Shown here in pieces: positions 838 to 58,180 of a stretch of DNA of 64,000 bases (within the stretch, counting starts at the first letter, position 1; the number at the start of each line of letters is the position of its first letter). A program made the position numbers and the translations under genes. The notes under the pieces are model-generated. The model saw only the letters and a list, made by a program, of their open reading frames with translations, did not search any database and was not told the origin of the DNA. The DNA comes from Molanna angustata. Lineage: Eukaryota > Arthropoda > Insecta > Trichoptera > Molannidae. Where the stretch lies: assembly GCA_963576475.1 (NCBI GenBank), contig OY754990.1, positions 17,466,153-17,530,152 of the forward strand, given 5' to 3'.

Positions 838-1943
838 ACCAGTGCGTGTAGTTGTACTGATTTCTATGCAGTTAACCGTAGAGCGGTCGGCCACTAAAAA
901 GACTGCATCCAGAACGGGTGGTGAATAAAACATAAAAACCATTTAAAGTATAATATATAATTTTATTTAATACATCAAATTGAATATTAATTATACAATA
1001 TATAGGTACCTACTGATAATTGATTTACTGAGAGGTGTTGGAAAAAGAGTTAAGCGTTGGCTACAACCCACACGGTTTCGTAAATAGTTATTGAAAGCAA
1101 ATGTGTACACAAAATGTAACTGTTGTGAAGAATTTAGTGTTGGTCACAACCCAAACCTCTTTATAAATCGTCATCGATAGCAAATTTATATACAATATTT
1201 CATCAAGAGACTATGGAGAATGGTTTACAAAATTTCAGCAAGATTGGGCTATGGGAAATGGATCTGAGATAGATCTATTTCGATTTGGTCTAAGGTTACT
1301 TGTTATTAAATGCAAAATAATTAACAAATATAATTGAACCTAAACAGAAAATAAAAATATACAGTGACCTCTCAGCTATTTAAATCCATATTTATTAAGT
1401 ATTATTACATATTTTTTTATATATAATATAATTACATGAATCCGTACATAACAACATATAATTAGTATATGCCAATATAAATATATAGAAATACATATTT
1501 TTTTCATAGAACATTTTTTGTTTTTTGAAATATTTAGCAAACGCTTTTTCCACGAATACAAATTGAGCGATCATTATTGTTGCAAACTGTACCTAAGCCA
1601 CACACTCTTACTCTTATTTTGAATATGTTGCAAGGAATGTATGCGTATTTGTTAATGCATCTTACACCGTAACTGCAGCCTCTGCAACGAACTGCTTCGG
1701 TATGAGAGACGCTCATCGCCAACAAGACAGCCTGGAATTTCGAGAAATTCATTAATTTAATGTAATATCGGCATATTTTATATGTATGTAAATTAAGTAG
1801 ACCTCGTAAGATTGTCGTTCTGGATTTGCACATGTTTGTGCACGGCTATATTAGTTAGTCAGTTTGTCTGTCCTTGCATTCGTTTGAAATCCTCCTAAGT
1901 CAAAATAGGCAATTTTACAGTAGAGCAAAAAAAAATACATTTA
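838..1943. repeat. Left arm of the A/B inverted duplication (3' half, includes exon 2 of gene A)
   Basis: This stretch is the diverged reverse complement of about 24788-25925: the 3' flank, the exon 2 coding block and the distal intron. Recognisable paired blocks include the GCGGTCGGCC region (880-890 against 25842-25852), the AATAAA poly(A) region, and the intron segment reading CAGTAGAGCAAAA. The homology stops at 838, where the TA tract and PLE begin, and at 1943, where a Helitron begins. Confidence 0.85.
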
Positions 1944-4900
1944 TCCAACTGTCGATTCGTTCATGAGAATTCAATTCTCTTAATGAATCGACATTATTAA
2001 GCCAAGATGCGTGTAAGAAGGAAAATTTTGTATGGTGTAGTGGACTTTTGCATGCTAATAACACCAACTAGAGGCCTCGCAGCATATATGTTCCGATACA
2101 TGGATTTACTCAGAATTCGGAGTAGAACATTTTATGTGAGTTTTGTGTGTGTGGCTGTGTGTGTGTGTGTGTGAGTGAGGGTGTGTGTGTGTGTGTGTGT
2201 GTGTGTGTGTGTGTGTGTGTGTGTGTGTTCGCGGCTGCAATAAAGTGCGGACCTTGCCGTGACAAAAACCACGATTGTGCGGACAGACCTCAAAGTGAGG
2301 ACGTCCGCATAATAATTAAGCAACGCGTCAAATGTACCGTTAGAATCCTCGCATTCTAAATAGTCTATTGGAGAAATCTTGAGATTTTGGTATTGGGGTC
2401 CCCAAATTCGGTATTTTTGTCATAAAAAGTTAACACATGCTAAACTTTTAGTTCATGCGTGTAAACACCACGTGGCGCCACCAGTCCGAAGAGTATGAAT
2501 ATATGCGAAAATGCGGACCTTACGTCAAGTCCGCATATTACAATAACAGCATACTTATCTCTGGACCGCGTGTATTCTTTCCGTATAAAAAAATACTTCT
2601 TGTGTGTAAACGCCAAGTGGCGCGACCAGTCCGAAGAGTATATATATATATATACAAAAATGCTTCAGAACTACATTTTCATAGTATTTCAAATAAAACC
2701 TGTTTTTATGATGAAATACTTATTAAAAAGATAAATTATTGCAATATTCGAAACTAGTTGTGTGCACTCTCTACGTGATACCTACCTGTTGAGAAATTGA
2801 TGTAAAATTACGCTAAAAAATTCTTTAATTATGACCAATTTAATTTGGTACTGTAAATTAGTCAAATCCAAGTAGGTATTCATATACCTACATTTACACA
2901 TACTCAAGACATCGGCAGTTGGATCTCATGTATTTACATTTAACCTACACAAAACATATAAGATCATTTCACAACAAGCAACAGTTATAATATATATCTA
3001 TAGTCATATTGTAATTCACGCGATTGTCATAGGTACCATACCTTTACGCCGTTTACCTATTTGGGGTAGGCAGAGAGGACCGAACACTAGATTCCTCTAT
3101 CTTGACATACATTTCTCGCTTCATTCACGTTCATGCATCGTGTCATACACGCTCTGCTATTATTCTTACTTCTGACACCTCCATCTTTCAAAATTCCATT
3201 AATGTGATCGTGCCAACTTTTCCTTGGCCGACCTCTACCTTTCGTTCCTCTTTTATCACCCTTATATACTTTTTTCGTCAGTCGATCATCATTCATTCTT
3301 TCTACGTGGCCAAACCACCTAAGGGCATTTACTCACGATATCTCTTTCAATCATACATCTCATTTCTTATTCTGTCATAGGTAGGTACCTACCTAAATAT
3401 TACACAAATGTGTATATTAGCCGATCGCGTACCGTACAGCCGAAGTTGAAAAATCGTGCGTTAGATAGTGGTTACCTTTATCACACCTCAAGAAATTTAT
3501 AAAGCGACTAATCAGAAGATATCACCTTTCCAATGGAAACAAAAATCATCGAAATCGGTCCACTTTTTGTCATAATTTTCACTGAACATAAAATCACGTC
3601 GAATTATTATATGTAACCCAGGTTTTAATAATAAACGAGAGGGTTGTGGCCAACCATCAACTCTCAACTATATGTAAATAGTAAGAGCATATTTGTCTTC
3701 TTGAAAGATTGACAATCCCTAAATATATTTTTATGATGAACATTACTATTAAATTACTAAACACATAAAAATAATCTATAGCCTGAAAGCAATTTGAAAG
3801 TTTTGATTGATTACGTTCATGTAGATGTCGGTTTTTTATATATAAGTAGGAGATTATTATATGTGTCTAAGTTGTCAATTGAAATGTATTTACTTCATTT
3901 TTTTGCAAAAAAAGAATTTAGTCACGACCACATTCAATACAAATTGTATGGAAAACGACACGAGGACTCATTGATCGACTTTAGTTTGATTATCTAATTA
4001 ATCTTCATAATATTATGCCATCAAGTGGTTTACCCATTCGGGGTAGGAAAAAAAGGACTGAACTCCACATTATACTATCCTGACATACGTACCTGCATAG
4101 TTTATGATAGTTATATGTACCTAGATATATTATATAATACAAAACATATTATATTTTATAATTTCGATTCAGGTTTAATTATTTGGTAAATACTTATTTT
4201 TCAAATATTATTTTTATCTACTTATATATTTATTTATTTTTAAATATACCTACATATAAAATTGATATTTCATTACATTTGTAGCTGCAATACTGTAGGT
4301 ACCTTCTGTAAATTAGTCAATTCCAAGTAGGTATTTAGTATAAAACATAAAAGTAATAATAATAATAATTTTGAATGATTTATATAGCAACGTCTTCGTG
4401 AATGTCTCACCTCAACACCGCTTAACTATTCATATACCTACATTTACACATACTCAAGACATCGGCAGTTGGATCTCATGTATTAATATTTAACATACAC
4501 AAAACATATAAGATCGTTTCATAACAAGCAACAATTATAATATATATCTATAGTCATATTGTAATTCACGCGATTGTCATAGGTACCATACCATCACGCT
4601 GTTTACCTATTTGGGGTAGGCAGAGAGGACCGAACACTAGATTCCTCTATCTTGACATACATTTCTCGCTTCATTCACGTTCATGCATCGTGTCATACAC
4701 GCTCTGCTATTATTCTTACTTCTGACACCTCCATCTTTCAAAATTCAATTAATGTGATCGTGCTAACTTTTCCTTGGCCGACCTCTACCTTTCGTTCCTC
4801 TTTTATCACCCTTATATACTTTTTTCGTCAGTCGATCATCATTCATTCTTTCTACGTGGCTAAACCATCTAAGGGCATTTACTCACGATATCTCTTTCAA

Positions 4901-58070: not shown

Positions 58071-58147
58071 AAGATATTACAGCTTTTATATACCATTCTA
58101 GTTGTTTGTTACATTTTCTAATTAAATACAAAAACTAATCTTCCAAT

Positions 58148-58180
58148 ATGAAGTTGACGCTGAGCATTTTTTTCGTTCTT
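58148..58180 (+). CDS. Peptide gene E, orphan first exon
   Basis: MKLTLSIFFVL followed by GTAAGT: same length, phase and character as the other four first exons. No matching second exon is found between here and the window end, where the intron position is occupied by TIR elements, LINE pieces, Helitron H5 and PLE-4. Exon 2 may lie beyond the window or be lost. Confidence 0.6.

Follow-up and report, generated by a model that had tools for sequence, protein, structure and literature searches.

The gene cluster and its wider family

The window, by which we mean the whole 64,000 nucleotides analysed (positions 17466153-17530152 of contig OY754990.1, C26 below, of the trichopteran Molanna angustata), carries a cluster of two-exon genes for small, probably secreted peptides with eight cysteines; the genome searched for their relatives amounts to 995 Mb. 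A six-frame search of the whole window for the strict spacing C-x2-C-x5-C-x8-C-x9-C-x5-C-x7-C-x6-C followed by a stop codon gave exactly four matches (Table 1), and neither this pattern nor a looser version of it occurred in 60 Markov-resampled windows. Each match lies in an exon 2 directly preceded by a CAG acceptor, and upstream on the same strand there is an exon 1 of 11 codons which starts with MK and ends in phase 0 at a GTAAGT donor. Joined, the two exons encode 76 residues in all four genes (A to D), so the original prediction of four two-exon genes with precursors of this length and spacing is borne out. The phase-0 splice falls inside the leader, introns range from 0.9 to 15.2 kb and the four peptides encoded by exon 2 share 52-95% identity; each exon 1 was assigned to its exon 2 by strand and nearness. 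The mature part has a net charge of +4.7 to +8.7 and, read by eye, a putative signal-peptidase site lies about two residues before Cys1 (...TEA/VGC, ...ADA/VSC). The analysis supports the earlier description of a secreted, basic, duplicated cysteine-rich family. A fifth exon 1, formerly taken for an orphan, is that of gene E, the next exon 2 on the same strand lying beyond the window end; the mature spacing of this gene differs slightly (x2, x5, x8, x8, x5, x7, x5, then three residues).

Table 1. Coordinates of the eight-cysteine peptide genes, in window positions unless a contig is given
Feature	Position	Strand	Remarks
Strict pattern match (six-frame pattern search)	1537-1686	-	
Strict pattern match (six-frame pattern search)	25048-25197	+	
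Strict pattern match (six-frame pattern search)	47891-48040	+	
Strict pattern match (six-frame pattern search)	52206-52355	-	
Gene A exon 1	16957..16989	-	MKATFFILVVS; starts at 16989; phase 0
Gene A exon 2	1537..1731	-	leader end and mature eight-cysteine peptide; stop 1534-1536; intron 15.2 kb
Gene B exon 1	24078..24110	+	MKITFLILVVS; starts at 24078
Gene B exon 2	25003..25197	+	mature eight-cysteine peptide; stop 25198-25200; intron 0.9 kb
Gene C exon 1	43173..43205	+	MKSIFFFFAVL; starts at 43173
Gene C exon 2	47846..48040	+	mature eight-cysteine peptide; intron 4.6 kb
Gene D exon 1	54209..54241	-	MKSTFIFFVIS; starts at 54241
Gene D exon 2	52206..52400	-	mature eight-cysteine peptide; intron 1.8 kb
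Gene E exon 1	58148..58180	+	MKLTLSIFFVL
Gene E exon 2	C26:17531288-17531482	+	window-equivalent 65136-65330, about 1.1 kb past the window end

Searches of the genome with family members and a hidden Markov model (HMM) of the family gave a minimum of 21 intact copies of exon 2, plus a broken one, on four large contigs, contig C78 excluded: 16 intact and the broken one on C26, one on C21, three on C10 and one on C3. These counts are lower bounds, the genome search scoring only the best candidates. Over the regions fetched the family HMM found intact members to E 1.2e-18 and the broken copy at 9.4e-8, the next match being at 0.22. The C10 members are less firmly tied to those of C26: a C26 member searched against the whole genome gave E 0.0014-0.23, and the family HMM over 16 kb gave 3.6e-9 to 1.7e-7. 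The C3 member was reached with a C10 query (E 1.6e-16). In a tree of 21 rows A pairs with B and C with D, while the C10 and C3 members are grouped on one side with strong support (100/99), with a long-branch warning. All eight cysteines are invariant in the 17 aligned members and present in those of C10 and C3. The spacing, originally called invariant, is so among the four genes inside the window; across the wider family 5-6 residues separate Cys2 from Cys3, 8-9 Cys4 from Cys5, 4-5 Cys5 from Cys6 and 5-7 Cys7 from Cys8, and the stop follows either directly after the domain or, in some members, after a short C-terminal tail. By strand and nearness a fitting exon 1 was found for 19 of the 21 intact exon 2s (15/16 on C26, the one on C21 and 3/3 on C10); none was seen for gene g552 of C26 in the stretch read, nor was any printed for the C3 member within the 2 kb read.

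Contig C78 (93.7 kb, partly read) is an inverted counterpart of C26:17.530-17.561 Mb, with 98.5-100% identity in three aligned blocks. It carries four copies of the g552 exon 2 (C78:9237-55595) against one on C26 (C26:17552003-17552188). The last three copies are spaced 19,172 bp apart, and the 8.3-9.2 kb compared between these units are more than 99.9% identical. The difference may be a real copy-number difference between haplotypes or an effect of assembly. Weak matches on contigs C14 and C15 were judged, from the sequences read, to be unrelated to the family. A made-up consensus of an insect eight-cysteine motif had no match in the genome, and no confirmed relative was found in the viral contigs and prokaryote genomes searched. 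Moricin was found neither in this genome nor in the control genomes, a result that carries no information.

It is very improbable that these are not genes at all and that we are dealing with open repeats or pseudogene relics of a transposon-rich region. The long open frames around them are indeed largely transposon-like or simple repeats, one copy is broken and no exon 1 turned up for g552 in the sequence read; against this, 16 of the 17 exon-2 copies on C26 are open with all eight cysteines and are accompanied by matching exon 1s with TATA elements, and the leader has an omega of 0.33 (14 codons, eight subfamily genes). The element TATAWA lies at -100 to -77 from the ATG in 10 of the 14 C26 genes tested, compared with 6.2% of random 24-mers in the cluster. 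Four NF-kB-like patterns had no site in the 14 upstream regions, a result of little information as shuffles lead one to expect 0.04-0.58, and GATA and AP-1 sites were not in excess there.

Predicted fold and relation to known families

The original prediction stated that the spacing could not be placed with known families, chitin-binding domains among them. As far as sequence is concerned this stands, since Pfam, NCBIfam and PDB sequences gave no credible match. Pfam CBM_14 matched, above its cut-off, none of the four window exons, 17 aligned members, three C10 sequences and one C3 sequence, and of the CBM_14 domains in the genome (at least 134, with 150 of 207 candidates scored) none lies at a family locus. 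Up to E 10, no match was found to defensin, Kazal, WAP, macin or other curated cysteine-rich families (Pfam with 17 members, NCBIfam with the four window exons; HMMER filters drop most weak matches). Scattered single matches in these libraries, i.e. CCCH zinc fingers (E 0.035 or worse), FYVE (0.07), CBM_19 (one member, 2.2) and others, were rejected as cysteine-driven, and PDB sequence matches to TNFR9, pyruvate kinase, an epimerase, SARS ORF7A and RaCI1 were judged to be chance. Recognisable CBM_14 domains are present at C21:24124727, C21:24140272 and C10:14299227, some 174-206 kb away from the C21 member or the C10 cluster, possibly by chance.

Profile comparison by HHalign of the family with CBM14 sets gave probabilities of 1-5%. 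Against four PDB pieces, cysteine-preserving shuffles scored as high as observed in 9/100 cases for alignment A3 and 5/100 for A4, and in 4/100 and 2/100, respectively, when seven genomic domains were added to these pieces. A4 consists of the three C10 members, with the first cysteine trimmed, and 14 rows taken from the 17 in A3 (the gene A, L011 and L009 copies were omitted and C3 was unused), and an eighth genomic domain (L047) was not included in the profile. When the three C10 sequences were compared by themselves, the probability was 1.3%, spanning 11 columns only. Control comparisons with the seven genomic domains gave 97.8% for tachycitin, 96.5% for CHIT1 and 99.5% for 5wus, the last not being independent as the same sequence is among the seven: the genomic domain C2:4346870 is identical over 40 residues to the 5wus chitinase, which we take to be that of the moth Ostrinia furnacalis. 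Because Pfam CBM_14 is unmatched and shuffles reach the low HHalign score, the family is not filed as a member of PF01607.

The picture changes with the predicted fold. Structure prediction, one of the checks proposed originally, was run on the mature peptide and gave a pLDDT of 90; in the Foldseek comparison with 350,542 PDB chains the first eight ranks are all CBM14, each of them weak (best E 0.42), and chitin-binding proteins were among the fold matches in a viral structure library too. Tachycitin (1DQC) is absent from the Foldseek lists, which is no evidence against a likeness to it. The CBM14 fold consists of a three-strand and a two-strand sheet, and the structural matches to it agree with one another although each is weak. 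These predictions suggest that the mature peptide is probably a single CBM14/peritrophin-A-like domain. The part of the original statement that concerns chitin-binding domains is weakened at the level of fold, and an eight-cysteine variant resembling such domains is already in print. A distinct disulfide-rich fold, with the CBM14 likeness a generic small beta arrangement, is an unlikely alternative though not a far-fetched one: CBM14 chains take the first eight ranks despite being few among known structures (five family members in 2018, PMC6128652), and the viral library points the same way.

The published comparisons are drawn from PMC4690117, PMC3597473, PMC6128652 and PMC10619976. CBM14 domains are described there with six cysteines spaced CX13-19CX5CX9-10CX12CX7C or CX15CX5CX9CX12CX5-9C; the canonical disulfides are C1-C3, C2-C6 and C4-C5. 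The best core reading of the window genes, C-x8-C-x8-C-x9-C-x13-C-x6-C, departs from this spacing. In it the core six would be Cys1 or Cys2 followed by Cys3, 4, 5, 7 and 8, and Cys6 would form an extra bridge with the remaining one of Cys1 and Cys2. Under this mapping one extra cysteine would lie between core C1 and C2 and the other between core C4 and C5. The family resembles CBM14/peritrophin-A (ChtBD2) in predicted fold, in the order of the core cysteines under the mapping and in a C-x2-G-x2-[CFY]-N motif, and differs from it in the missing Pfam match, the eight residues between core Cys2 and Cys3, the two additional cysteines and the scarcity of aromatic residues.

A close parallel is the eight-cysteine domain resembling chitin-binding domains (CBD) that PMC3597473 describes in Pp3put and Ll3put and in related peritrophins of mosquitoes and the cat flea. 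Like our family, this domain has eight cysteines on a CBM14-like frame, lacks the canonical aromatics and is missed by standard tools. Its extra cysteines are printed at alignment positions 18 and 53 (20 and 54 in the discussion), which, as far as such positions allow, would place them in the same two intervals as in the family, the second seemingly further past core C4 than Cys6. The core spacing is CX10CX5CX11CX14CX10C, compared with x8, x8, x9, x13 and x6 in the window genes, and the domain is the N-terminal part of a multi-domain peritrophin, while the family peptides stop after the domain or a short tail. Its authors left the function of this "putative CBD" open.

Tachycitin of the horseshoe crab is likewise a small, single CBM14-fold protein and is antimicrobial (PMC6128652); its CPKGLHYN aligns with the family's CxxGxxCNN in HHalign, but it has 73 residues and ten cysteines and no significant sequence similarity to the family. 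PpCBP of Pteromalus puparum (PMC4690117) is also secreted, single-domain, encoded by two exons and of the peritrophin-A class; unlike the family it has a recognisable peritrophin-A domain, an acidic pI of 4.26, demonstrated chitin binding and 96 amino acids. Avr4, a CBM14 protein known in complex with chitin (6BN0), has four disulfides (40-70, 50-56, 64-109 and 86-101), as the family would have, and mutation of its N93-D94-N95 raises the Kd 3- to 6-fold (PMC6128652). This NDN lies at +7 to +9 from Cys86, as does the family's NNN from the equivalent Cys5, so the nearly invariant NNN after Cys6 would occupy the place of the Avr4 motif. Avr4 differs in being a fungal effector with an N-terminal helix and a long loop. 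The place of its Trp100, which adjoins Cys101, is taken by Ile or Val in the window genes and by Trp in the C10 and C3 paralogues (LPWC, IPWC). These distant paralogues (C10:14114911-14124857 and C3:1562623-1562808; L035, L036 and L037) have C-P-x2-T-F-C-D-x-N..PWC with Trp before Cys7, and are perhaps nearer to an ancestral glycan-binding form.

Selection and possible roles

Site models were applied to the 50 mature columns of eight genes of one subfamily (E, g538, g552, g557, g560, g581, g583 and g123); g592, an outlier, was left out, and so were all other subfamilies, including window genes A-D. M0 gave an omega of 1.07, and M2a (log-likelihood -765.35) fitted better than M1a (-776.46), with 2dlnL of 22.2 (p 1.5e-5) and 26% of sites at omega 4.2. 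We implemented the codon models ourselves and kept the branch proportions at their M0 values; in 40 null simulations under M1a the highest value was 6.94 and none reached that observed. At ten sites the posterior is about 0.8 or higher (15, 21, 22, 25, 27, 29, 31, 41, 45 and 47, where Cys4 is 19, Cys5 is 30 and Cys7 is 44). When all members of the family are compared in pairs, the ratio of nonsynonymous to synonymous substitution (dN/dS) has a median of 0.81 in the mature part (42 of 136 pairs usable, 14 above 1) and 0.37 in the leader (66 of 136 usable, three above 1). Of the 28 pairs within the subfamily, six, each drawn from E, g538, g552 and g123, have lower identity in the mature part than in the adjoining 120 bp of intron; the remaining 22 show the greater divergence in the intron. 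Gene conversion could partly mimic the selection signal. Since the window pairs A-B and C-D have mature dN/dS of only 0.25 and 0.19, diversifying selection on the mature part belongs to the eight-gene sister subfamily and is not shown for the window genes.

The explanation that we put forward, tentatively and at somewhat less than even confidence, is that of tandemly expanded secreted CBM14-fold peptides, perhaps glycan-binding defence effectors. Small secreted peptide genes, with two exons splitting a hydrophobic N-terminal leader, would have expanded in tandem; the mature part would fold as a compact tachycitin-like domain and be secreted into the gut, haemolymph or another fluid, where the face around Cys5 and Cys7 may bind chitin or a different glycan, whether this belongs to fungi, microsporidia or parasites or to the peritrophic matrix. 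A variable surface, which diversifies in one subfamily, would sit on the conserved cysteine frame, much like that of a defence effector. The predicted fold suggests a possible defensive or gut-lining role for the cluster. Disulfide pairing, glycan binding and defence are here inferred, and the immune, venom or inhibitor role proposed originally is still inference, with which the selection in the sister subfamily fits. Several points weigh against this explanation: in addition to the missing Pfam match, recombinant PpPer3, which has the eight-cysteine domain, did not bind chitin, possibly for other causes (PMC3597473), and EHEP and Der p 23 do not bind it either.

Insect CBM14 proteins are mostly peritrophins or cuticle proteins. 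Peptides of the same fold could therefore be structural parts of the peritrophic matrix, cuticle, tracheae or egg and not defence effectors, which is rather improbable; the many CBM_14 domains of this genome agree with it, while the diversifying selection in one subfamily, the tandem expansion and the copy-number difference on C78 do not. The basic charge is also against it, PpCBP, PpPer1 and PpPer2 being acidic, with PpPer3 neutral to basic (pI 7.75). We consider equally improbable a role of this fold in a reproductive, venom or other secreted arms race (seminal fluid, silk, urticating secretion), in which the peptides would target a protein or a small molecule and would not bind chitin: a conserved leader with a fast-evolving mature part, the failure of PpPer3 to bind chitin and the use of the CBM14 fold for tannin binding in EHEP are in accordance with it, whereas the near invariance of NNN is not.

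The explanation by glycan-binding CBM14-fold peptides would place a family overlooked by the profile searches used on a known fold, which is directly testable. If it is right, the secreted proteins of insects would include a standalone CBM14-like peptide that diversifies rapidly, and the finding might be relevant to the "putative CBD" with eight cysteines in fly and flea peritrophins. A wider and more doubtful proposal is that in insects the CBM14/tachycitin fold became a hypervariable peptide scaffold encoded in tandem arrays, with a fixed eight-cysteine frame and fast-diversifying loops round a glycan-binding face, i.e. a secreted glycan-targeting defence class missed by profile libraries and evolving like defensins or conotoxins. 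In the literature a standalone eight-cysteine family in moths was not found among the titles and abstract openings listed, and a text search with sequence fragments found nothing; most subscription papers lie outside the search, so such a family is possibly published.

Repeats and transposon-like frames

Intron 1 of gene C contains a 39-bp unit repeated 23.1 times with 100% identity (43313-44211, plus strand), which by its identity appears to be a recent minisatellite. The array is in frame with exon 1 on intron read-through, giving an open frame of 359 amino acids of SRVVFWTMAYHSN repeats. Weak BLAST matches recur every 1.55 kb or so (about 4012, 5561, 7115 and 8669), which suggests a long-period tandem repeat; Tandem Repeats Finder was run with periods up to 500, below this period, and so could not show it. 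On the minus strand a long reverse-transcriptase frame (34168-36552, Pfam RVT_1), presumably Penelope-like, is resembled by eye at its end by a frame at 62623-63561 without a Pfam match. Near such pieces lie (TA)n arrays of about 151-209 units with 99-100% match (33617-33971, 418-834, 62141-62442 and 63634-63985).
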